DNA of 35,946 nt from the NCBI GenBank assembly GCA_026984935.1, contig JALSRD010000095.1, positions 1 through 35,946 on the forward strand, read 5' to 3'. Numbering within the stretch: position 1 is the first letter of the stretch; each line of letters opens with the position of its first letter. Both the position numbers and the translations under genes were made by a program. A model generated the notes under the pieces. The model was not told where the DNA came from and did not search any database. It was given only the letters and a program-made list of their open reading frames with translations. The stretch comes from Desulfobacterales bacterium (lineage in GTDB: Bacteria; Desulfobacterota; Desulfobacteria; Desulfobacterales; JALSRD01). Shown here piece after piece: positions 19,081-29,752 of the stretch.

Positions 19081-19360
19081 AGCGTTTCTCCTTCTTCGGA
19101 ACGGTTACGGGAAACGACCGATGATGTCGCCGGCCGACAACGGTGTTCAAAGTCCGGGGCACAAACGGCCCTGCCGGGAAAAGGGTGACATCTCTCAAAA
19201 GGCGGCAACCAGTGAAGATTCGCACGTTCTTGAAAACAAGTTGACCCCCGGCTTCCGGGGGGAGGGTTGTAAGAGAGCAAAAATAAATGGGGTTTATAGA
19301 ATAAAACAATGGTCAGGGAATGACGAAAATTTTTTACGATATTACAGAAAACCGGTGGCG
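19081..19360. other. Leader region of the liv operon
   Basis: About 250 bases separate the predicted promoter from livK. It contains no recognisable gene. It does contain a strong hairpin, annotated separately, and an AT-rich stretch at 19265-19345. A long leader is unusual next to the otherwise compact operon. Confidence 0.5.
19245..19261 (-). promoter_or_regulatory. Strong GC hairpin in the liv leader
   Basis: CCCCCGG-CTT-CCGGGGG is a perfect seven-pair stem with a three-base loop inside the predicted liv leader. It is not followed by a T-run on the minus strand, so it is not a standard intrinsic terminator. It could stabilise the transcript 5' end, bind a protein or be chance. Confidence 0.4.
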
Positions 19361-19366
19361 TGTCAA
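19339..19366 (-). promoter_or_regulatory. Near-consensus sigma-70 promoter of the liv/ligase operon
   Basis: On the minus strand a perfect TTGACA (19366-19361) is followed after 16 bases by TAATAT (19344-19339). Transcription would begin near 19332 and run into livK. The region downstream of the promoter is AT-rich. No operator palindrome was obvious. Confidence 0.6.
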
Positions 19367-19471: not shown

Positions 19472-20194
19472 TCAAACGGAAGTGGCCATCTTCTTCCGGT
19501 TGCCGGCATTGAAACACCAGCCCAGCCAGGAGCCGTGGTGCGACAGGCTGATGTCAATGTTACAGGGTCTGTCGTTGCACAGCACAAACGGCGGCTGTGG
19601 GCGCTTTTTTTCCACGGGACGAATAATCTGCAACTGCGATGTGCGGATTTTAAGCGCCGCGGCGATGGATTTTTTGCAGAAAAATCGCACCAGCGCCGAT
19701 GTTGCGTGGTGAATGGATTCGAGTTCTGCAGGTGTGAAAGCTTTGTGCCACACGGCCTTGTTTTGCCAGGCGGCATGCACTGAGGGCGCGATCTCGCGGA
19801 CGTCTGAAATCATCAAAAATTGCGGCCATGCATCCGCCGGCAAGTTTCCGCCGACAGCGTGGATGTAACCCTTCGTATGCGTGATCAGCGTCGAAAAGGA
19901 GTGGTTCCGATAGACGACTTCAGCCTTAAAAGACGACGCGGCTGTCTGACGGAAAGCGGACACTTCAAATTTTGGGTGCGAAAAGACCGGCGGGCCGCAC
20001 ATTTTCGAGACGAGCTTGAAAGCGCTTTCCTTGGCGGCCCAGAATATCCAGAGCGTTAAGGCAGGGTTGTCGGCCGTATTTATGCAGTCTTGCTCTGCGG
20101 CGGTGAACACCCTCTGCATAAAGCGGGTGTCTTTCGATTTTTCCCGCATGCCCGCTTGGTTTACATCGACGATGTCATTGCCCAGCAGCAGCAA
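19472..20194 (-). CDS. 4'-phosphopantetheinyl transferase
   Basis: A 240-residue phosphopantetheinyl transferase. It moves the phosphopantetheine arm of CoA onto the serine of an acyl carrier protein. The N-terminal half has the AcpS-like GNDIVDV (magnesium ligand Asp) and WAAKESAFK (residues 52-60, with the catalytic Glu and Lys). The C-terminal half has ISLSHHGSW, a histidine-rich segment seen in two-lobed enzymes. The start is TTG 20194 (TTG CTG CTG CTG GGC), since no ATG or GTG lies before the conserved motif. It overlaps the acyltransferase gene by 20 bases and has no ribosome site, so it depends on coupling. As last gene of the lipid cluster it most likely activates the cluster's own ACP. 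Confidence 0.85.
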   Translation of the reverse strand: MLLLGNDIVDVNQAGMREKSKDTRFMQRVFTAAEQDCINTADNPALTLWIFWAAKESAFKLVSKMCGPPVFSHPKFEVSAFRQTAASSFKAEVVYRNHSFSTLITHTKGYIHAVGGNLPADAWPQFLMISDVREIAPSVHAAWQNKAVWHKAFTPAELESIHHATSALVRFFCKKSIAAALKIRTSQLQIIRPVEKKRPQPPFVLCNDRPCNIDISLSHHGSWLGWCFNAGNRKKMATSV

Positions 20195-20936
20195 AGTAAG
20201 CCTGTTCCATGCGTACGAGCCTGCCGGCGATCTGATTGGCGACGTCCCGGGTGGCGCGCAGGCCGGAATAGGCGCTTTCGGGCTTGAAAAGCTCCATATT
20301 CATGTAAAAACGGGCGCCTTTATGCGGTATGTCGCTGTAATTTTTCTGATTATGCCCCCGCAGGTAGACACACAGGACGTGACAGTTGCTCACCTTGTTG
20401 ACCAGCCGGCCGACGCCGTACGTGAATTTATCTTCCTGGATGCGGCCGGTTCGGCTTCTCCCGCCTTCGGGGAAAACTGTGACCGTGTGGCCTTTTCTGA
20501 GAAGGTAGGTGACCTTGTCCAGTGATTTTTTCACGGCTTCCCTGCTGCCGCCGCGGTCGATGGGCACGCAGCTACCCACGTAGCAAAGCGTTCGCAGGAT
20601 GTAATTCTGGTAAAAATTGGCCCGTTCCGGCAAATTCCATGAAAATATCTTGAAAGACTTCATGTAGGACCAGGTGGAAGCCAGGCTCCAGTTTAAGATC
20701 AGTGAGTCGATCTTGGTGAGATGGTTGGAGCACAGCAGTATGGGGCCTTCAACGGTACGCTTGAGGTTCTTGTAATACCTGCGTATCTCGCGCAGATGCT
20801 GAATTCTGTACCTGCCGACAAAACGCATAAGCGCGATTAGCAGAGTGCTCCAGAAAGGCAGGGTGACCCATCCGGCCATGTATTGGATTTTTAATGCAAA
20901 TCTTTCTTTGAATTTGAGATCGTTCATATGCGTCAC
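20175..20936 (-). CDS. PlsC-type 1-acyl-sn-glycerol-3-phosphate acyltransferase family protein
   Basis: A 253-residue acyltransferase of the PlsC/LPLAT family. The catalytic HX4D motif is NHLTKID (H72, D77); the acceptor-binding motif is FPEGGRSR (155-162). A hydrophobic segment near residues 20-40 should anchor it to the membrane. PlsC proteins place an acyl chain on a glycerol phosphate, but the LTKI interior differs from the usual HQSxxD and the acceptor may differ. The start is either GTG 20936, overlapping the ACP stop (GTGA), or ATG 20927; neither has a clear ribosome site. In this cluster it probably transfers the product of the dedicated synthase from ACP to its acceptor. Confidence 0.85.
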   Translation of the reverse strand: MTHMNDLKFKERFALKIQYMAGWVTLPFWSTLLIALMRFVGRYRIQHLREIRRYYKNLKRTVEGPILLCSNHLTKIDSLILNWSLASTWSYMKSFKIFSWNLPERANFYQNYILRTLCYVGSCVPIDRGGSREAVKKSLDKVTYLLRKGHTVTVFPEGGRSRTGRIQEDKFTYGVGRLVNKVSNCHVLCVYLRGHNQKNYSDIPHKGARFYMNMELFKPESAYSGLRATRDVANQIAGRLVRMEQAYFAAAGQ

Positions 20937-21181
20937 TGTATTTTCTTTAAAATCAGGTTTACGCCGTCACCCACCGTGGCGACGGTGTCGGCATCGTCGT
21001 CGTCCACTTCGATGTCAAAAGCATCCTCGAAATCCAGCACGATATCCACCAGGCGGGCGGAATTGATTTCCAGGTCTTCCAGGATCGATGTTTCCATGGA
21101 AATATTTTCTTTCGAAATTTCTTTCTTGCTGTACTGGTTTAAAATTTCAACAACTTTTTCAAATACTTCCTCTCGCGTCAT
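20933..21181 (-). CDS. Acyl carrier protein of the lipid cluster
   Basis: An 82-residue acidic four-helix acyl carrier protein. The phosphopantetheine attachment site is Ser41 in LEDLEINSARLVDIV. The usual DSL triad is replaced by NSA, so this is not the housekeeping AcpP type. The acidic helix III region FEDAFDIEVDDDDAD is typical. The ATG at 21181 has a run of seven G preceded by AA as ribosome site. It lies between the ketoacyl synthase gene and the acyltransferase gene, overlapping the latter by four bases. The altered motif and the linked transferase suggest a carrier dedicated to this pathway. Confidence 0.9.
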   Translation of the reverse strand: MTREEVFEKVVEILNQYSKKEISKENISMETSILEDLEINSARLVDIVLDFEDAFDIEVDDDDADTVATVGDGVNLILKKIQ

Positions 21182-21277
21182 TGAAAGAACCCCCCCTTGT
21201 CATGTTGTGAGATACGCGGCAAGAAAACATCTTAAAAAAATGCCGTCGATCATGGATCGTCCAAAAAACTTCCCGCA

Positions 21278-22564
21278 TCAGGCTGCGCTTTGTTCCCATT
21301 TTTTGAAAAAGATGCAGGTGTTGACATCGCCGAATCCGAAGCTTGCCTTGGCCTGAATTCTCAAATGCGGCGTTTCGCGGGTCTGGCGGACGATGCGCTT
21401 GGAAAACGGCAGCAGTTGTGCATGCAGGTCTTCACAATTTACGGAGCCATGCACGAACCCTTTGTACACCTGCAGAATGCTGGCCACCGACTCCAGTCCG
21501 CCGGCGGCTCCCAGCGAATGTCCGACCAGGGATTTGGTTGCGTTGATCAGCGGGAAATCGTCTGTGTTGCGGTTGAGGGCCTTTGCCCAGTTTTGCACTT
21601 CGAACGGGTCGGCGAAAGTGGCCGTCAGGTGGCCGTTGATGGCATCTACATCACGGCCGCCGATGCCTGCGTCCTTCAGGGCATCGTGGATACAACGCCG
21701 TACACCTGCAGGATTGGGCGCGGTCATGCTGCCGCCCATGCGTTGCCCTCCGCAATTGACGGCCGCACCGATGATTTCAGCGTAAATTCTTGCGCCGCGT
21801 TCCCGTGCGCGGTTAAGATCCTCAAGCATCAAAACACCGGCGCCGGATCCCGGCACGAAGCCTGCAGCGCTGGCACTCATCGGACGCGAGGCTTTTTCCG
21901 GCTCATGGTTGCGGGTTCGGTTCAGGACCCGCATGGCATCGAATCCTGCCCAGATATACGGTGAAGCGCCCTCGGCGCCTCCCGCCAGCATGCGTTGGGC
22001 CAACCCGTTGCGGATGCGGTACATGGCGTCCACAATGGCTTCTGTGCCCGTGGAGCATGCACTGCTGTTGGTCGTCACCTGGTTCCCCAGGGCCAGCAGT
22101 CCGCCGATCCTGGCAGACACACCACTGGCCATGACCTGCTCGACAGCCGTGCTGCCAAGCCGGCGGACTTTTCCGGCGGCCGTCAACGGTACGACCTTCC
22201 CGACAATGGTATCCATGCCGCCGATGCCGGTTCCAATGATGGCACCGGTGCCCCAGTCCACCTCCTGTGAATCATGGGCGGGAACTTCAAAGCCCGCATC
22301 GCGCCAGGCATCGATCGCGGCAATGGATGCGTACCGAATACTGCTGTTCATCGCCAGAAGCTGATCGCTGGAGAAGTAGCGTGCGCTGACTTCATCGATG
22401 TTTTGGGGCACCCCGGCCACCTGGCAGCCGAATTTCAATTCTTCCAGTTCCGGCATGAACCGGATACCGGATTTTCCCGCTCGCAACGCTTTTTCGAAGG
22501 CCTCGATTCCGTGTCCGTTGGGGGCGACGATGCCCAGACCCGTGATGACGACCCGCTTTCTCAT
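21278..22564 (-). CDS. Beta-ketoacyl-ACP synthase, FabF/FabB type
   Basis: A 428-residue condensing enzyme of the KAS I/II type that extends an acyl chain by two carbons with malonyl-ACP. The Cys-His-His set is intact: C170 in SSACSTGTEA, H312 in INGHLTAT and H349 in VGHSLGAAGG, with the supporting lysine K344. The N-HxTxT motif reads NGHLTAT rather than NAHGTST. Length is normal, and no separate chain-length factor accompanies it, so it should act as a homodimer. The ATG overlaps the stop of the FabZ-like gene (ATGA). It presumably does the elongation steps after KAS III initiates. Confidence 0.92.
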   Translation of the reverse strand: MRKRVVITGLGIVAPNGHGIEAFEKALRAGKSGIRFMPELEELKFGCQVAGVPQNIDEVSARYFSSDQLLAMNSSIRYASIAAIDAWRDAGFEVPAHDSQEVDWGTGAIIGTGIGGMDTIVGKVVPLTAAGKVRRLGSTAVEQVMASGVSARIGGLLALGNQVTTNSSACSTGTEAIVDAMYRIRNGLAQRMLAGGAEGASPYIWAGFDAMRVLNRTRNHEPEKASRPMSASAAGFVPGSGAGVLMLEDLNRARERGARIYAEIIGAAVNCGGQRMGGSMTAPNPAGVRRCIHDALKDAGIGGRDVDAINGHLTATFADPFEVQNWAKALNRNTDDFPLINATKSLVGHSLGAAGGLESVASILQVYKGFVHGSVNCEDLHAQLLPFSKRIVRQTRETPHLRIQAKASFGFGDVNTCIFFKKWEQSAA

Positions 22565-23019
22565 TTCTGCTTAATTCCCATCCCGGCAATCGTACCTCGG
22601 CAGACGATCTCGCCGCTTTCTGAAGCAATTTCAGCTTCCACTTTTAGCTTGAGGCGGCGAAAGTATTGCTTTTTCGCCCGGATAACGACGCGTTCGCCCG
22701 GCCGGACGATGCCGCAAAACTCAACTTCCGCCTCCGTGAACACGGTGAGAATTTTCCGGATTTCATCGCGGCCCATCTGCAGGGATGCCAGGTAAATTCC
22801 GTACGCCACAACACCGGTCTGCGCCATGGTTTCCAGCAAAATAACACCCGGGGTAATGGGATTGCCCGGAAAATGTCCGGCGTAAAAGGTTTCATCCTTC
22901 CTGAATGTATAGGCTGAAACAATGCCGTCGTTGTTTAACGCTATGATTTCATCGATAAAGCGAAAGGGTGCTTGCTGGGGTATCAGCGGCAGTATGTCGG
23001 CTTTTGTCAGAGGGTCCAT
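22561..23019 (-). CDS. FabZ-like 3-hydroxyacyl-ACP dehydratase
   Basis: A 152-residue single-hotdog protein like FabZ, which removes water from 3-hydroxyacyl-ACP. The active-site histidine is H49 in AGHFPGNPITPG and the glutamate is E63 in LLETMAQ, spaced 14 residues apart as in FabZ. The start ATG at 23019 lacks a strong ribosome site. It overlaps the following synthase gene by four bases. The cluster also has a FabA-like dehydratase, so two dehydration specificities are available. Confidence 0.88.
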   Translation of the reverse strand: MDPLTKADILPLIPQQAPFRFIDEIIALNNDGIVSAYTFRKDETFYAGHFPGNPITPGVILLETMAQTGVVAYGIYLASLQMGRDEIRKILTVFTEAEVEFCGIVRPGERVVIRAKKQYFRRLKLKVEAEIASESGEIVCRGTIAGMGIKQK

Positions 23020-23090
23020 TTGTCAGCTTCAAGGAAAAAATTTCACAAAATATAATCATTAAGGGGAAAAATACAACCATTTTTTACATC

Positions 23091-23699
23091 TTAGAGCATC
23101 TTTCCGCCAACCGAATTCTCCGACTTGAAGGGATAATCCCTGTAAGCGATACCCTTGAAAATGCCGACTTTGGCATCTTTGATGGTGTAAATGTGCGCAT
23201 CGTCTACAAAAACGTTGCCGCTGCCCACGACCAGCGATGTGTTGCCGCCCTGTAAAACCGAGTACCTTCGCACATCGATTTCGTAGCGCACCACTGCGTT
23301 GTGCGGCCGGATCTGGCCTTCGAAACTCACCTCTTTACAGCCCAGGGCGCGACCGTTGCCCTGGCTGCCGCAGCAGACGCAGTAAAAGCCCAGCAGCTGC
23401 CAGACGGCATCGACGCCCAGGCAGCCGGGCTGTACCGGGTCGCCGTTGAAATGGCACTGGAAAAACCATTCATCGATCTGGACATTTTTTTCGGCCAGGA
23501 TTTTGCCCCTGTTGCCGCGTTTCTCGATTTCGAGAATGCGGTCCACCATGAGGAACGGCGGCGCCGGCAGCCTGGAAAACTCCGCCGGCGGGTCGGCAAC
23601 CAGTCTGCCGTAGGCAAAAGCAATCAGCTCTTCTTTGGCAAATTGCGTTCTTTTCAGAAAATCCTGATAGGTCATGGTGAACACGCGATTCTGTTGCAT
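23091..23699 (-). CDS. FabA-like 3-hydroxyacyl-ACP dehydratase/isomerase
   Basis: About 202 residues, matching FabA. The motif WFFQCHFNGDPVQPGCLG is followed by VDAVWQLLGFY; catalytic residues are H83 and D97, 14 apart as in E. coli FabA (H70, D84). FabA dehydrates 3-hydroxyacyl-ACP and can isomerise the trans-2 to the cis-3 product, the classical route to unsaturated chains without oxygen. Whether this one isomerises cannot be told from sequence. The start is uncertain: ATG 23699 or ATG 23675, neither with a clear ribosome site. A TTG at 23735 would overlap the KAS III gene. Confidence 0.88.
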   Translation of the reverse strand: MQQNRVFTMTYQDFLKRTQFAKEELIAFAYGRLVADPPAEFSRLPAPPFLMVDRILEIEKRGNRGKILAEKNVQIDEWFFQCHFNGDPVQPGCLGVDAVWQLLGFYCVCCGSQGNGRALGCKEVSFEGQIRPHNAVVRYEIDVRRYSVLQGGNTSLVVGSGNVFVDDAHIYTIKDAKVGIFKGIAYRDYPFKSENSVGGKML

Positions 23700-23718
23700 G
23701 TCGTTTGAGGTGCCATCT

Positions 23719-24699
23719 TCATCCGGAGAATTCAATGACCATGCCGGCCCAGGTCAGTCCGGCACCGACGACGATAAGGGCCACGCGGTCACCGGTTTTG
23801 AACCGTTGCCAGTTCTGGCTCAAAACGGTGGGCGCGCCCGAGGCGCCGGTGTTGCCGAAGGCATCGACGTTGAACAGGTGCCGTTTTTCGGCGACGGCGC
23901 ATCGGCGGCAAACGGATTTCAGCATCGTCAGGTTCGCCTGGTGGCCGATAAAATAAGGTGGCGGCCCCGGATATCGTTGAACGATTTCGTGATAACAGTT
24001 CACCGTGCGTTTGATGGCAAAGGACTGCACGGCGCTGCCTTCCTGTCCGAAAAACCCCGTTCTGGGGATGGTGACTTTTTTCCAACCCTGCGGATGCGAT
24101 GTCATCGTGTGGAATGTGACGGCTGCCTTGGCCGGAACCCTGGTTGAAATTACCGCCGCACTGGTCCCGTCACCCCACAAAACCGCTGTTTGCCGGTCCG
24201 TATAATCGACGACACGGGTGTTGTTTTCCGGAGAGACCAGTAAAATGAAATCGGGCAGAGCCTCGGGGTTCATCATACCCACGAAGTGAATCTGGGCGCC
24301 GAAGCTCGAGCAGGCGGAATTCAAATCGAACGCATTGACTTCGAGGCCCAGTTCCGCCGCGATGGTACAGGCTTCGGCCGGTGTTAGCGTCTCCGCCGAG
24401 CAGCCGCCGGCGATGAGCAGCCCGATCTGCTCTTTTGCGATGCCGGCATTTTCGATGGCCATCTCAGCCGCCAGTCGGCCGGTCATGGCGTTGCTGTAAT
24501 CAGAGGCTTCGCTGGCAGCGCGAAGGTCCCGGTTCCTGGTTTCTTTGATGTAGTCGAGCGACAGGACCGTTTTGCGTGTCCGGATGCCCACGCGCTGCAT
24601 GATCCAGTCGTTGTTTGTGCCGATGTCGAGATCTTCTAAGAATTGGTTGTCGATGATGTTGTCCGGGTGAAAATGCCCGATGCCGTGCAGATAAATCAT
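23719..24699 (-). CDS. Beta-ketoacyl-ACP synthase III (FabH-like)
   Basis: A 326-residue thiolase-fold condensing enzyme of the KAS III family, which starts chains from an acyl-CoA and malonyl-ACP. The triad is complete: C130 in NSACSSFG, H253 in IGHQANLTML and N283 in FGNTGASGAP. The ATG at 24699 has GAGGAC nine bases upstream. About 150 bases separate it from the preceding reductase gene. Such stand-alone KAS III genes in lipid clusters often choose an unusual starter; here the starter is unknown, though the nearby acyl-CoA ligase operon could supply one. The latter is speculation. Confidence 0.9.
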   Translation of the reverse strand: MIYLHGIGHFHPDNIIDNQFLEDLDIGTNNDWIMQRVGIRTRKTVLSLDYIKETRNRDLRAASEASDYSNAMTGRLAAEMAIENAGIAKEQIGLLIAGGCSAETLTPAEACTIAAELGLEVNAFDLNSACSSFGAQIHFVGMMNPEALPDFILLVSPENNTRVVDYTDRQTAVLWGDGTSAAVISTRVPAKAAVTFHTMTSHPQGWKKVTIPRTGFFGQEGSAVQSFAIKRTVNCYHEIVQRYPGPPPYFIGHQANLTMLKSVCRRCAVAEKRHLFNVDAFGNTGASGAPTVLSQNWQRFKTGDRVALIVVGAGLTWAGMVIEFSG

Positions 24700-24846
24700 T
24701 TGGGAAAGTCCTCAGGGTTTACGCATACCTTGGTACCGCACTTGTGGCCGGGCAGGGGAGGCGTCTGCACCACTGGCGCCAAGCCCTGAAAACGCTCAGG
24801 CGTGCCGCTGTCGCAGCAACGTTCAGGGGTGGTTTCGGCCTGTCCG

Positions 24847-25794
24847 CTACCCGCTGATATGTTCGCCTCCATCAACGCGGATGATGTTCCCGTTGACCCA
24901 GGCGGCTTCATCCAGACATAGGAGGTAAATGAAATTGGCGACGTCTCGCGGTGTGGTGATGCGGTGGAACGGGTTGCGCCGCTTCGCAGTGGCCTTCAGG
25001 TGGTCACTGCCGGGGATTAGCCGCAGCGCCGGCGTGTCGGTAACCCCCGCCTGAACGATATTGGCGCGGATACCATACGCCGCGTATTCAACCGCAATGG
25101 ATCGGGCAAGGGACTCCAGAACGACTTTGGCGGCCGAAACGGCGGCATAGCCTCTCCAAGCGATTTCGTTGCCTTCGCTGGTAAGCCCTATCACACGGGC
25201 ATCACCGGCAAACATCTTGCGCCTGAAAATTTCCTGGACCCAGGTGGCGAGGCTGCTGCCCATGCTGTAAATCGTTAAGGCAAAGTCTTCCTCCTGCAGA
25301 AGATCATCACTGTTGTATGCGGGAGGTGAGGCAACGTCGCGGAGGCCTTCTTCACCTTCTCGAAATAATCCGTCGCATGCAGACTGCAGCGTTTCCCTTG
25401 GCAGCGCCAGCTTCCGGCTCAGCTGTGTCAGCAGCCGATCGTGCGATGCATGCGTCTGTGGGTGCTCCGGCGCAAGCAGTTTCAAATTGCCGTAGGCGAT
25501 GGAGTGCAGCAGCATGCGGATGCGCCCATTGGTGCGCATGCCGGCCTGCAAACCGTCCAGCACCTGCTGCATGCCCTTGGCAGACAGCGCATTGACGTTG
25601 TATGTCAAAACCTGAACACCGCTATCGCTGAGTTTCTGAAACTCGGGCGTGATGCGTTTCATGGCCCCCTTGCGATCCCGGTGCACGATGCAGATATTCA
25701 TGCCGTGTTGACTCAGTTTCTTGGCTGTCGCCAGACCAAAGCCACTGGACCCGCCCAAAATCAGTGCCCAATAATCCGAATTAAACGTGTGCAT
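24847..25794 (-). CDS. FabI-like short-chain reductase (probable enoyl-ACP reductase) with an insertion
   Basis: A 315-residue short-chain dehydrogenase/reductase. The nucleotide-binding stretch is ILGGSSGFGLATAKKL (about 12-27). The active site is Y216 with K223 in GYAAVSAAKVVLES, seven apart as in FabI enoyl reductases, and LLHSIAYGN (96-104) matches the FabI HSIGFAP strand. It is about 50 residues longer than FabI, with extra sequence around 110-170 near the expected substrate loop. First gene of the lipid cluster, and the likely source of the double-bond reduction step. ATG 25794 has no good ribosome site; a TTG one codon earlier is possible. Confidence 0.78.
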   Translation of the reverse strand: MHTFNSDYWALILGGSSGFGLATAKKLSQHGMNICIVHRDRKGAMKRITPEFQKLSDSGVQVLTYNVNALSAKGMQQVLDGLQAGMRTNGRIRMLLHSIAYGNLKLLAPEHPQTHASHDRLLTQLSRKLALPRETLQSACDGLFREGEEGLRDVASPPAYNSDDLLQEEDFALTIYSMGSSLATWVQEIFRRKMFAGDARVIGLTSEGNEIAWRGYAAVSAAKVVLESLARSIAVEYAAYGIRANIVQAGVTDTPALRLIPGSDHLKATAKRRNPFHRITTPRDVANFIYLLCLDEAAWVNGNIIRVDGGEHISG

Positions 25795-25955
25795 CAAACA
25801 AACCGCATATCAGGGGTTCGAAAAGCATTGAATACGCATTCAGCAGACCCTGTAGCCATCCCGGGCTGCTGCCGCCGGCGTGCTGACGAAACAATCCACG
25901 GATACAGTCTTGCACAAGGGGGATGAGAACCCGCAGCTGTGAAATTACCTGTAAC

Positions 25956-26235
25956 TTAATAAATATATCGAACCCGCTTGTAAAATGCAACCGGTTTCGG
26001 GATTTGCCAGCCGTTTCCGGGATAGGGGCAGTCGCAGGCCGTGGTGACGCCTCCGTTCAGTCCTATGCGGGTGGTATCACCGTAGCTGCCGTCCACTTCA
26101 TAGACGAACTGCTGTGGCATCGCGTCGGTATTCCAGGAAGTGGAAGGAACCGATGTCGTAGCGCTTCTGACCGCGGTGAAAAATGGTTTTGGAGGCTGCA
26201 ATGCGGGCGATGGTTTTCACATCCGGTGGGGTCAT
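25956..26235 (-). pseudogene. Frameshifted SWIM zinc-finger protein remnant
   Basis: From ATG 26235, preceded by AAAAGGA, the minus strand encodes RIAASKTIFHRGQKRYDIGS and FHFLEY, the usual lead-in of SWIM-domain proteins. That frame stops near 26122. A second frame overlapping there continues with YEVDGSYGDTTRIGLNGG and ends in TACDCPYPGNGW, the CxC half of the SWIM zinc motif. The expected CKH half never appears; the frame ends in unrelated IPKPVAFYK... and stops. So one frameshift and a lost C-terminus break the gene. It lies 31 bases downstream of the DUF3786 gene and was probably in its operon. A sequencing error could explain the frameshift but not the missing CKH. Confidence 0.7.
25962..25990 (-). 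promoter_or_regulatory. Candidate promoter of the lipid-biosynthesis cluster
   Basis: On the minus strand TTGCAT (25990-25985) and TATATT (25967-25962, five of six with the -10 consensus) are 17 bases apart. Transcription would start near 25955, about 160 bases before the FabI-like gene. The promoter lies inside the broken SWIM gene, so the cluster may have gained or exposed it when that gene decayed. Confidence 0.45.
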
Positions 26236-26266: not shown

Positions 26267-27097
26267 TTATGTGGCGTACGGGGGCATGGCCTGTCCGATG
26301 CCGTGGCGCCGGGCGAGCTTTTCGAACATCTGCGTCAGGCCCGTACCCAGTGAAAAAACGGCTCCGATGTCGAGGTTGCGGTTGGCGGTTTCATCGAAAA
26401 GCACGCTCAAGCTGGATCCGAAGCCGTCCTCGGGCCGCTGGTAGCAGATCATCAGGGGGACTCTGGGCAGGGGCTGCAATACCACGGAAATATCGGCGGC
26501 AAACGGATTTTCCACGGGCTGCGCATTGAAAATCTGCACCATGTCGCGAAAGAGATCGGTGTAGCTGTCCGCCACCTGTTGCAGGGCCGCTTCGCATCTT
26601 TTTTGAAAAATCGGGTAAAGGTCCATGCCGTTCTGCAGCTCGCGGAATGCAAGCCAGCGGCCGCTGGGCGTAAGCCCTTTCCCGTAAAGAACGTAGGTTA
26701 AAAACGGCACCGCCACCCAGGGATTGATATGGATATCCGCGGAGAGATTCCCCCTGGAGTCCACGCTAAAATCTTTGCCCAGGACTTTGAGCGTGAGCCG
26801 GCCGCCGGCAAAGCGCGCCCCCAGCCGCCTGGCGGCGGCGGCCAGGTCGATGTGGATAATTTTGCTCTTCAGCCTTGCAAGGTATGCATCCCGGTTCTGG
26901 GCGATACCGGCAGAATGCCCGGCGGTTTTGGCATGCCGGGCAACGGTTTCGGCATCTAGCTTGGGACAGTCGGCAAGCGCCTTTTGGCCCACAAAGACCG
27001 CCCCGGCAAATGCCAGGCAGGTTTTCTTGCCGCACTGTCGGCAGTTGGAGCGGTCCAGCAGTTTGAAGATCTGCAGGGTGGTTATGATCTGCGGCAT
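26267..27097 (-). CDS. Fe-S cluster protein with DUF3786 domain
   Basis: A 276-residue protein with two parts. Residues 15-45 carry a [4Fe-4S] motif of the corrinoid-protein/RnfB type (PF04060-like), C19-x2-C22-x4-C27-x16-C44, in a NCRQCGKKTC...ADCP context. Residues from about 100 on match DUF3786, with the sequence WVAVPFLTYVLYGKGL typical of that domain. DUF3786 proteins occur mostly in strict anaerobes and their function is unknown; some lie near corrinoid or C1 genes. The start ATG 27097 has only GGGAC upstream. The next gene in the same direction is the broken SWIM gene. It is one of the better indicators of an anaerobic host. Confidence 0.82.
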   Translation of the reverse strand: MPQIITTLQIFKLLDRSNCRQCGKKTCLAFAGAVFVGQKALADCPKLDAETVARHAKTAGHSAGIAQNRDAYLARLKSKIIHIDLAAAARRLGARFAGGRLTLKVLGKDFSVDSRGNLSADIHINPWVAVPFLTYVLYGKGLTPSGRWLAFRELQNGMDLYPIFQKRCEAALQQVADSYTDLFRDMVQIFNAQPVENPFAADISVVLQPLPRVPLMICYQRPEDGFGSSLSVLFDETANRNLDIGAVFSLGTGLTQMFEKLARRHGIGQAMPPYAT

Positions 27098-27378: not shown

Positions 27379-29487
27379 TTACGCCTTGCGCTCCCAGACC
27401 GTCAGCTGGGCGATGCCGTGCTGGAATTTGCGGCGCGTTTCGCGGATCACGAACGGCACGTCGCGGGGCTCGTCCAGCAGGCGGAAGTGCACCTGCAGGT
27501 GCGCTTTCAGCCCGTCCAAGGTGGTGTAGGGCTCCCCATCCTTGCGGAAGCCCCCCAGCCAGTTTTCGCGCTGGGTGAATTCTTCCAGCCAGGTGTAGGG
27601 CGAGGCGATCACCAGCAGACCGCCCGTCAGGATGCGGGTGTGGATGTTGTCGAGAAATTGTGCCGGATCGTAGAGCCGGTCGATGAGGTTGGCGGCCAGG
27701 ACCAGGTCGTAGCCCGTGTATAGTGGCTTCAGGTTGGCCGCGTCGGCCTGGGCGAATTCGATGCGCCGGGGCGCCGGATCCAGGCCCAGGTCGGACAGGC
27801 GCTTTTCATGGTAGGATACGATATCGCCCTCTTCGGTGAGTTCATAGTGGATGATCCCCTTTTCCTGCATCTGGAAGGCGATGCGGATGAAGCGCGCCGA
27901 AAAGTCCAGGCCCGTGACGGATTCGAAGCCCGCCGCCAGTTCGAAGGTGGCGCGGCCCACGGCGCAGCCGATGTCCAGGGCACGCCGGCGCGGCCGGTTC
28001 TCGCTGTAGGCCAGGCAAATGCGGGCGCAGGCGCGGGGGAAGTTTTCTACGCCGAAGTAGGACGCCCCGTAGTGCGCTTCGCAGTACTGGGAGACGGCGC
28101 TGTCAGTTTCGTACATGGCCGTGGGCAACTCCAGCGGCTGCCGGGATTCGATGTAGCGGAAGCCAGCGTGCTGGAAGAAATGCCGTCGGAAGGCGTAGCG
28201 CGCATTCCTTGTGGCCTCGTTGCCGGTGGATATCCAGGAGCCGCCCTTGATGAGGTTGTGGCGCGTGTCGAAGGTGGGCGTCGAAAAGTCGTCGTAAAAG
28301 GGATGCACCGCAAAACCTTCGAAGCCGCTGATGGGCGTTTCGGTCCACTGCCAGACGTTGCCGATGATATCGAAAAACTCGCCGAAACGGAAGCGGTTCA
28401 CCGGACATGACGAAGCCCAGTGCTCCAGGTTGATGTTGCCCGGCGCGTGCTCCCAGTACGGCTGGTCGGGGATGTCGTGCAGGTCGCGCAGGCGGTACCA
28501 CTCGTCTTCGGTGGGCAGCCGCAGGGTTTTGCCGGTTCTGTGGCTAAGCCAGTTGCAGAAGGCCTTGGCCTCCAGGTAGTTCACTTCCACGGGCCAGTCC
28601 CAGGGCATGTCGATGATCTGTGCCATGGTTCGGAAGCGGTAGCCGTTTGTTGCATCGACCCAGAAAAGGGGATGCCGCGCGCCGCTGTATTCAACCCAGC
28701 GCCGGCCTTCGTCGGTCCAGTACTCGTGAAGGCCGTAGCCGCCGTCCTGGACGAATTCCAGGTACTCCCGGTTGGAAACCAGGTATTGACTGGCCGCGAA
28801 ATCCCAGACATCGAACTCGTGGTGTCCGTACTCGTTGTCCCAGCCGTACAGCGGATGGTCTTTGGGTTTTCCCAGCACGACGCGGCCGCCCGGCACGGGC
28901 AGCAGGCGGTTCTGCGGTGCCGCGCCGCTGGTAGGGCAGATGTCCCAGATGGGCAGCTGGCGCACCTGGTCGATGGGCAGGCGGCGGATGATCACCGACG
29001 AGGTCTCCAGGTGGATGCGCTGGTGTTCGATGCCCATCAGGATGGCCCAGAAGGGGCTGTCCCAGGTGATCGGCATCTGCAGCGGCAGGCTGTCGATGAC
29101 CGCGTCGACGCGTCGGCGCACCCGGTCGCGGTAGGCCCGGACTGCTTCGACTGAAGGCCAGTCGTAGTGCGCTTCGTCCAGGTCGTCCCAGGACATTTCG
29201 TCCACACCTACAGCGAACATGGATTCGAATTGCGGGTTGATGCGCGTATCGATGATGCGGGCGATGATCAGCTTGTTGATATAAAAAGACGCCGTGTGGC
29301 CCAGGTAGAAGATCAGGGGGTGCCGCAGCGGCTCTGGGCGCAGGTAGAAGGCCCCATCTGCGGCCAGCGTATCGTACAGCTTTTCATCGATGCTGTATGT
29401 CTGGTGAAAATATTGCCGGATTTCCTCGCGCTTTTCAGCAGCGCTGCCGGTGTCCAAAACGATGGTGCGGGTATTGCGGATGTCCAT
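27379..29487 (-). CDS. ovoA: 5-histidylcysteine sulfoxide synthase / 4-mercaptohistidine N-methyltransferase (OvoA)
   Basis: A 702-residue fusion with the full OvoA layout. A DinB-like N-terminal domain supplies the non-haem iron ligands H64 (LGHTASFY) and H155/H159 (GIEHQRIHLE). A formylglycine-enzyme-like sulfatase-modifying domain follows, with LRLPTEDEW, GNVWQWTE and IKGGSWIS between about 320 and 420. A C-terminal SAM methyltransferase has motif I LDIGCAVGRATFEL near 505-518. OvoA joins cysteine to histidine using O2 and later methylates the thiohistidine to ovothiol. ATG 29487 has GGGAGG upstream. No cleavage lyase (OvoB) or other thiol gene is nearby. It is divergent from amtB. An O2-requiring enzyme in an apparent anaerobe is notable. 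Confidence 0.9.
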   Translation of the reverse strand: MDIRNTRTIVLDTGSAAEKREEIRQYFHQTYSIDEKLYDTLAADGAFYLRPEPLRHPLIFYLGHTASFYINKLIIARIIDTRINPQFESMFAVGVDEMSWDDLDEAHYDWPSVEAVRAYRDRVRRRVDAVIDSLPLQMPITWDSPFWAILMGIEHQRIHLETSSVIIRRLPIDQVRQLPIWDICPTSGAAPQNRLLPVPGGRVVLGKPKDHPLYGWDNEYGHHEFDVWDFAASQYLVSNREYLEFVQDGGYGLHEYWTDEGRRWVEYSGARHPLFWVDATNGYRFRTMAQIIDMPWDWPVEVNYLEAKAFCNWLSHRTGKTLRLPTEDEWYRLRDLHDIPDQPYWEHAPGNINLEHWASSCPVNRFRFGEFFDIIGNVWQWTETPISGFEGFAVHPFYDDFSTPTFDTRHNLIKGGSWISTGNEATRNARYAFRRHFFQHAGFRYIESRQPLELPTAMYETDSAVSQYCEAHYGASYFGVENFPRACARICLAYSENRPRRRALDIGCAVGRATFELAAGFESVTGLDFSARFIRIAFQMQEKGIIHYELTEEGDIVSYHEKRLSDLGLDPAPRRIEFAQADAANLKPLYTGYDLVLAANLIDRLYDPAQFLDNIHTRILTGGLLVIASPYTWLEEFTQRENWLGGFRKDGEPYTTLDGLKAHLQVHFRLLDEPRDVPFVIRETRRKFQHGIAQLTVWERKA

Positions 29488-29752
29488 GACAGCCTCCCGG
29501 TGCCTTCTGATATTTAATCCAACACGTCGCATGCCTTCGTGCGGGCGGCGGGGTTGGTCTCATGATCATTAAATATGACCATTATCGAGGGAAACGCAAA
29601 CGCCGGCCGACGGGAACCGGGGATGTGGAGAAATAACGAATATGGAACTTTTTTTTCTTAAAACGACATAATTGTTTGAAATCTTCCGGCAGTTTTTTGT
29701 ATTTCGTACCTATAACACATTAAATCAATTAGTTAATATTTTCCGGGGAGGA
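29488..29752. other. AT-rich divergent intergenic region between ovoA and amtB
   Basis: No gene is seen. The stretch 29560-29745 is markedly AT-rich compared with its surroundings and should hold promoters for both divergent genes. An 8-base palindrome ATGATCAT occurs near 29565. Confidence 0.5.

Follow-up and report, generated by a model that had tools for sequence, protein, structure and literature searches.

The 35,946-nucleotide stretch analysed here (contig JALSRD010000095.1 of the Desulfobacterales bacterium assembly GCA_026984935.1; hereafter, the window) carries a cluster of eight genes for fatty acid and lipid synthesis, which is a variant within a known kind, the dedicated fatty acid synthase (FAS) or secondary lipid cluster. 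Judging from the gene sequences, we lean towards an accessory, orthogonal type II FAS with a private acyl carrier protein (ACP), whose special acyl chain, perhaps unsaturated, would be transferred to a glycerophosphate-type acceptor by an acyltransferase of the PlsC/glycerol-3-phosphate acyltransferase (GPAT) fold. The window copy is dedicated but not self-contained, as the initial annotation of this DNA had called it; it is without both a ketoreductase (KR) and a malonyl transacylase (MAT), which are present in many relatives.

Gene Content and Signature Motifs

The eight co-directional genes named in the initial annotation are all present on the minus strand between positions 19472 and 25797, tightly packed, with several overlapping or almost overlapping and with gaps of up to about 150 bases, and the family assignment of all eight proteins is backed by Pfam and NCBIfam. 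The end of the cluster had been placed at 25990, about 190 bases too far, as the frame of the first gene is open for 320 codons only. In the order of transcription, the genes are as follows.

24847–25797, minus strand: enoyl-ACP reductase (ER) of the short-chain dehydrogenase/reductase (SDR) type, FabL/FabI-like, 316 amino acids (aa); start TTG, in-frame ATG at 25794
23719–24699, minus strand: initiating β-ketoacyl-ACP synthase (KAS III), 326 aa; Cys-His-Asn intact
23091–23735, minus strand: FabA-like dehydratase, possible isomerase; His/Asp as in E. coli FabA, exact start uncertain
22561–23019, minus strand: FabZ-like dehydratase, 152 aa; His/Glu as in FabZ
21278–22564, minus strand: elongating β-ketoacyl-ACP synthase (KAS), 428 aa; Cys-His-His intact, motifs NGHLTAT and GFGDVN
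20933–21181, minus strand: dedicated ACP, 82 aa; N-S-A at the phosphopantetheine serine
20175–20936, minus strand: PlsC/GPAT-fold acyltransferase, 253 aa; PF01553, NHLTxxD and FPEG motifs
19472–20194, minus strand: 4'-phosphopantetheinyl transferase (PPTase), 240 aa; PF01648, GNDIVD and WAAKES motifs

The FabA and KAS III genes overlap by 17 bases, and the FabA-like protein passes one NCBIfam FabA model (NF003509; 204 bits, cut-off 124) and misses another (TIGR01749; 162.6 bits, cut-off 238.15).

The catalytic motifs inspected in the window proteins (KAS, KAS III, FabA, FabZ, acyltransferase, and PPTase) are intact. Among the members of the operon family, counted here and for the reductase motif below with both L038 and L049 (one contig), the Cys-His-Asn triad of KAS III is found in 34 of 34, the FabA His and Asp in 32 of 32, and the FabZ His/Glu in 42 of 42, while the acyltransferase NHLT..D motif is found in 31 of 31 and FPEG is less constant (F in 30 and E in 29 of 31). 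Two proteins carry signatures of their own. The divergent ACP site reported by the initial annotation, NSA instead of DSL, is real and is a trait of the whole operon family, with N-S-[AS] in 38 of 38 members (N-S-A in 35, N-S-S in 3); E. coli AcpP has DSL at this position, and ApeE and ApeF have DSI. The KAS carries GFGDVN in 43 of 43 members, as opposed to GFGGTN in FabF and FabB, and [NS]GH[LF][TS][AGS]T in place of NAHGTST or NSHGTST. The earlier proposal that the pathway is a dedicated one, equipped with a carrier and a carrier-activating enzyme of its own, is supported.

A Conserved Operon Family

The gene-neighbourhood search that had been suggested for this gene set recovered a conserved operon family. 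A scan of genome contigs gave 53 loci (80 candidate stretches); seven with weak SDR matches at 26–38% identity (L088–L094) were dropped before counting, and six further loci from a search of the phylum were added. L038, which is the same contig stretch as L049, was left out of the KAS tree, the presence counts, and the concatenated tree with its approximately unbiased (AU) test. The remaining loci show the whole operon or parts of it, and those cut by contig ends lower the presence counts; in L048, L052, L053, L066, and L074, some of which are cut in this way, the reductase is accompanied by an SDR at most and by none of the other FAS genes of the set. Separately, the reductase match falls in two separate pieces in G552:C1, G594:C44, G707:C59, and G586.

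The KAS sequences come from ten phyla (Pseudomonadota, Myxococcota, Thermodesulfobacteriota, Spirochaetota, Bdellovibrionota, Chlamydiota, Acidobacteriota, Bipolaricaulota, Elusimicrobiota, and Bacteroidota), according to labels taken from records that are mostly metagenome-assembled genomes, so that single assignments may be wrong. At E ≤ 1e-40, the reductase occurs in 7 of the 395 genomes sampled from the phylum, and in the sample from the order it occurs in 39 of 389 (about 10%), the source genome being included in both. It was found in no plasmid record at E ≤ 1e-30 and on no viral contig, and no description of the operon was found in the open-access PubMed Central (PMC) texts that were searched.

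The order ER–FabZ–KAS–ACP on one strand is kept in 35 of the 36 loci that contain all four genes, the exception being the rearranged L080; the script itself counted 34, having failed L041 because two unrelated ketosynthase (KS) genes precede the operon there. Apart from MAT, each protein family of the flanks is confined to 6 of 52 loci at most, and the operon unit is therefore bounded. The pairwise distances among the cluster genes correlate (r 0.77–0.93; 299 permutations, p 0.003, which is the floor), a result that is also expected from shared organism ancestry. In a quick tree with long outgroup branches, the KAS clade stands apart from FabF, FabB, ApeO, ApeR, and the FabF of the source genome with a Shimodaira–Hasegawa-like approximate likelihood ratio test (SH-aLRT) value of 100, and the two additional KS genes from L041 are placed on the side of the outgroup.

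A gene family is divergently encoded beside the operon in L037, L038, L039, L040, L045, and L049 (L038 and L049 being one contig), and a similar-looking protein in L133 matches sigma-54 activators.

Missing and Exchanged Activities

Presence was counted twice, from open reading frames (ORFs) by a codon-usage script of our own and by tblastn on the operon strand. For the 36 loci with ER, FabZ, KAS, and ACP, the methods agree on 15 loci with a FabG-type SDR, 14 with a FabD-type transacylase, 26 with FabA, and 27 with a lysophospholipid acyltransferase (LPLAT) gene, the last in different loci; they differ for KAS III (25 and 27) and for PPTase (26 and 30). Both KR and MAT are present in 11 of these loci and neither in 18, and one KR and one MAT protein of relatives that were scanned match the FabG and FabD models best, both under the cut-off. 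Of 20 further stretches from the same order, 19 can be judged for each of the two genes, with KR found in 14 and MAT in 18; L136 ends before KR can be judged and L134 begins too late for MAT. Three of the 20 (L136, L139, and L145) repeat the counted loci L043, L045, and L061.

Within the 36 kb window, tblastn with three KR queries from relatives matched nothing except the reductase itself, and two MAT queries from relatives found neither a gene nor a remnant. The earlier report that the cluster holds no ketoreductase is thus borne out, while the frequency of KR genes in relatives shows that this is no hallmark of the system. Lacking both genes, the window copy must therefore borrow FabG and a malonyl transacylase; cross-use of this kind has a precedent in the MAT domain of PfaA, which can replace FabD (PMC8174602).

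In six same-order stretches (L135, L139, L140, L143, L144, and L151; L139 is the same contig as L045), as well as in L138 and L036, KAS III is absent from the position that it normally occupies, and another kind of KAS III is encoded after the PPTase gene; the two that were scanned, from L036 and L143, belong to the PRK07515 family. The initiating step is thus retained, with a different enzyme. A large protein of 1385–1669 aa, as far as covered, is encoded downstream of the operon in L042, L044, L051, and L057, and the one that was scanned (L044) starts with a biotin carboxylase, perhaps for the supply of malonyl-CoA. Four Bacteroidota loci carry a gene resembling type III polyketide synthases (PKSs) together with a flavoprotein gene. 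In L037 and L039, the similarity to PPTase is split by about 1 kb, in L039 within one 663-aa frame (L039:13094–15085), so these PPTases may contain an extra domain at the place that the LPLAT gene takes up in most loci.

Enoyl Reductase or Ketoreductase

The spacing Y-X6-K versus Y-X3-K separates SDR enoyl-ACP reductases (FabI/FabL) from FabG. When aligned with E. coli FabI and FabG, all 51 reductase family rows show Y-X6-K at the E. coli FabI position, and the extra SDRs of relatives show Y-X3-K (26 of 26), as do E. coli FabG and ApeQ. This argues that the window SDR is an enoyl reductase and not the missing ketoreductase, and the SDR was rejected as a candidate for that role. The FabI-like assignment of the initial annotation stands as far as this motif is concerned, and is qualified by the best NCBIfam match, which is FabL (below the cut-off of that model), and by the best structural match. 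The AlphaFold2 model (predicted local distance difference test score, pLDDT, 92.3) has FabL as its top Protein Data Bank match, with Z-scores of 31.7 and 31.5; another SDR reaches 30.7, within one unit, so that the fold alone is no arbiter between enoyl reductase and ketoreductase. The protein is longer than FabL, and helices 113–130 and 134–146 fall in the extra stretch. Ketoreduction had been assigned either to a housekeeping FabG or to this FabI-like protein; the former is present in the genome, and the latter is disfavoured because of its Y-X6-K spacing and the Y-X3-K of the extra SDRs.

Housekeeping Fatty Acid Synthesis in the Source Genome

The cluster would have been housekeeping if it held the only FAS genes of the organism, as the initial annotation pointed out. 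Elsewhere in the source genome, FabG, a DSL-type AcpP, and FabF are encoded side by side on contig C6; C100 encodes a FabZ-type protein, and both C35 and C60 encode FabH. In a same-genus genome (G395, 97% complete), the KAS III and ER of the cluster were not found at E ≤ 1e-40. For these two reasons, the window cluster is not the housekeeping FAS. The housekeeping system probably has as its enoyl reductase a FabK-like protein, which scores 265.6 bits, under the FabK cut-off of 453.1; besides the source genome and G395, two others among the 30 genomes searched have it. A check for FabV-type reductases with the PF12241 profile gave no match in any of 14 control genomes and is hence uninformative for the source genome.

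A related possibility is that ordinary unsaturated fatty acids are made by this cluster, either as a backup or as the main route; FabA and KAS would then supply monounsaturated chains for the membrane, and the window reductase would be the enoyl reductase of the genome. Besides the FabA of the window, no stand-alone FabA-type protein was found in the source genome, where the remaining PF07977 matches are the FabZ-type proteins of the window and of C100 and, on C39, a 1051-aa frame with four such domains, and Y-X6-K is absent from the five other SDRs examined there (an SDR match on C89 lay outside this check). We nevertheless regard this route as unlikely, in view of the same-genus genome without the cluster KAS III and ER, the FabK-like protein, and the restriction of the reductase to a minority of the order; a separate ACP and PPTase would, moreover, be pointless for housekeeping.

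The matches to the FabD model in the source genome are MAT domains of large frames and stay under the cut-off of 260.9 bits, with 204.6 bits on C57 and 134 bits on C54. C57 (L105) encodes a Pfa-like multidomain protein with KS, acyltransferase, ACP, KR, and dehydratase domains, and C54 (L106:4149–11981) encodes a 2610-aa protein with a PF00109 ketosynthase domain. On C39 (L107), genes for a PRK09258-family KAS III, presumably OleA-like, and for a hydrolase and an AMP-ligase come after that for the protein with four FabA domains; the gene set is possibly a long-chain olefin pathway.

The Acyltransferase and Its Acceptor

The earlier proposal of a fatty acyl chain handled by a PlsC-type acyltransferase is supported. 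The protein matches PF01553 and no lipid A type family in Pfam. Its structural model (pLDDT 92.8) matches human GPAT1 (Z 17.2), PlsC (16.3), plant GPAT (15.1), PatA (10.9), and LpxM (10.5), with a complex I assembly protein (7zkq_T, Z 16.9) ranking between GPAT1 and PlsC; Foldseek by itself returned two matches at E ≤ 0.001. As GPAT1, PlsC, and plant GPAT outscore PatA and LpxM, a glycerophosphate-type acceptor is our best guess from the model. A PlsY-like gene near the operon in both L041 and L147 was counted in favour of the accessory FAS reading as a whole.

The PlsY-like genes (L041:5469–6083 and L147:260–829; under the PlsY cut-off) lie about 2.4–2.9 kb upstream of the operon MAT gene in loci of one genus. 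In L147, the PPTase gene is followed by a second ACP-like gene (by eye), a KAS gene, and an AGP acyltransferase-like gene.

The cluster might instead supply acyl chains for a phenolic lipid, a hydrocarbon, or another non-glycerolipid product. In Chitinophaga and Aquimarina, the type III PKS-like gene (DpgA model, under the cut-off), the flavoprotein gene, and a methyltransferase-like gene (by eye) adjoin ER–FabZ–KS–ACP, and the source genome has, elsewhere, the PRK09258 KAS III that we take to be OleA-like, with its hydrolase and AMP-ligase genes. However, the Chitinophaga and Aquimarina copies form the outgroup, at 44–45% identity in the ER, and FabA, KAS III, and LPLAT were not found in them; the PKS family occurs in just those 4 of 52 loci, and none of the eight window genes belongs to it. 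This makes a non-glycerolipid product improbable for the window.

Comparison with Known Lipid Clusters

Tested for the defining features of each class, the cluster was rejected as an aryl-polyene, AcpXL, Pfa, ladderane, or housekeeping system. The aryl-polyene cluster of E. coli CFT073 (apeA–R; PMC8253772) resembles the window in combining a type II KS, ACP, dehydratase, and LPLAT (PF01553 in the window; ApeD is annotated as an LPLAT), so that the window could be imagined as a degenerate aryl-polyene cluster. Such clusters, however, have a clustered KR and no ER, and the CFT073 cluster has KS and chain-length factor genes, whereas the window has a single elongating KS with an intact Cys, no KR gene, and an ER with Y-X6-K. 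The chain-length factor, the acyl-ACP synthetase for the aryl starter, the thioesterase, and the outer-membrane exporter are not among the eight window genes, and the KAS lies outside the ApeO/ApeR side of the tree, where branches are long. The initial annotation had already argued against an aryl-polyene cluster from the absence of a chain-length factor and KR and the presence of an enoyl reductase; we agree, and consider such an origin most improbable.

The rhizobial cluster acpXL–fabZ–fabF2–fabF1–adhlA2–lpxXL, which makes the very-long-chain acyl group of lipid A, is a published six-gene precedent with a dedicated ACP, FabZ, its own KAS, a dehydrogenase, and an acyltransferase, none of the genes being named a ketoreductase in the available part of PMC11901934. 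That cluster differs in its two adjacent FabF genes and its LpxXL-type acyltransferase; the window has one elongating KAS, along with KAS III, FabA, an SDR reductase, a PPTase, and a PlsC/GPAT-fold acyltransferase. Given the single KAS, the acyltransferase family, and an LpxM Z-score below that of PlsC, we doubt that the window encodes an AcpXL-like pathway in which very long acyl chains are made for lipid A or a hopanoid.

The fuller relatives of the window cluster hold the same activities as the Pfa synthases of secondary lipids, or polyunsaturated fatty acids (PUFAs), namely KS, MAT, KR, a FabA-like dehydratase, ER, ACP, and PPTase (PMC3098273). Unlike these synthases, the window encodes eight free-standing proteins with one ACP and without a multidomain KS-MAT-ACP(n)-KR protein, and it adds KAS III, FabZ, and LPLAT. 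We entertain, as a tentative and unlikely idea, that the operon is a dissociated, oxygen-independent counterpart of Pfa, that is, a mobile type II synthase with a private ACP, FabA-like and FabZ-like dehydratases, and its own reductase, which would place (poly)unsaturated chains into phospholipid through its own acyltransferase. Extra FASII sets in deltaproteobacteria are also known from the Kuenenia/Desulfotalea clusters, which have been proposed to serve anaerobic PUFA or ladderane synthesis (PMC2649909). In contrast to those clusters, the eight window genes include no radical SAM or phytoene-dehydrogenase-like gene, and the window KAS keeps the Cys-His-His that is missing from three Kuenenia paralogues in the same source.

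Origin of the Window Copy

The G+C content of the cluster is 55.6%, and none of 137 overlapping stretches of the same size, taken from ten regions of the source genome and the window flanks, is as low (mean 61.5%, minimum 57.0%; L112, which is shorter than the stretch length, was left out). The low G+C content and the patchy distribution therefore suggest acquisition, and the operon was probably acquired by the source genome. In the concatenated tree, the window copy lies outside the other copies of its phylum.

A Model for the Pathway

The pathway would begin with the arming of the dedicated ACP by the linked PPTase. KAS III, which like the KAS retains its catalytic residues, would start the chain on this ACP, and the dedicated KAS would extend it. 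Malonyl loading would come from outside the cluster, the MAT domains of the type I synthases of the genome being the visible candidates, and ketoreduction would be borrowed from the housekeeping FabG. FabZ and FabA would then dehydrate and the FabL/FabI-type reductase would reduce; an isomerisation by FabA may also preserve a double bond, with no need for oxygen. Finally, the PlsC/GPAT-fold acyltransferase would take the finished chain off the dedicated ACP and attach it to a glycerophosphate-type acceptor, and the product would be a special phospholipid or another glycerolipid. The operon as such would move between lineages as a unit.

Several observations weigh against parts of this model. 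FabA was not found in 10 of the 36 loci, and isomerisation is therefore not essential across the whole family. The acyltransferase was not found on the operon strand in 9 of the 36 loci by tblastn, nor in 9, partly other loci, by ORFs, and the loci without it include the Bacteroidota ones with the type III PKS-like gene; acceptors other than phospholipid are therefore conceivable. A free-standing FabD over the cut-off was not found in the source genome (99.45% complete) in a search that 9 of 14 control genomes pass, which makes the source of malonyl-ACP uncertain and slightly lowers the odds that we give to the model; a Pfa-like MAT may serve both synthases, a divergent gene may have been missed, or the assembly may have a gap. 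As regards acquisition, a grouping of the window copy with the eight other copies of its phylum was not rejected (p-AU 0.255, on a quick tree with no mixture model), and the presence of the reductase in some tenth of the order also counts against it.

Surrounding Genes

Upstream of the cluster lie about 470 bases with just one 81-aa ORF on the cluster strand, followed by a DUF3786 protein with an N-terminal iron–sulfur domain (26267–27097, cluster strand) and by an OvoA fusion of 5-histidylcysteine sulfoxide synthase and methyltransferase (27379–29532), which scores far over the NCBIfam cut-offs in what is a probable anaerobe. On the downstream side follow transporter genes that look Liv-type by eye, preceded by one further feature.

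19339–19366, minus strand: sigma-70-like site (10/12), in the interval that separates the PPTase gene from the transporter genes downstream

This site weakly suggests that the cluster ends at the PPTase gene, the signal being weak because five such sites were found where 3.7 are expected in shuffled sequences.

Implications

The occurrence of a conserved FAS operon with a private carrier protein in records of ten phyla means that many environmental bacteria may make an unknown membrane lipid or a lipid-linked product. In a search for this product, and in work on how one cell separates two fatty acid lines, the private ACP (N-S-A), KAS (GFGDVN), and PPTase can serve as handles, and the operon could also be used to study how double bonds are placed in anaerobes.

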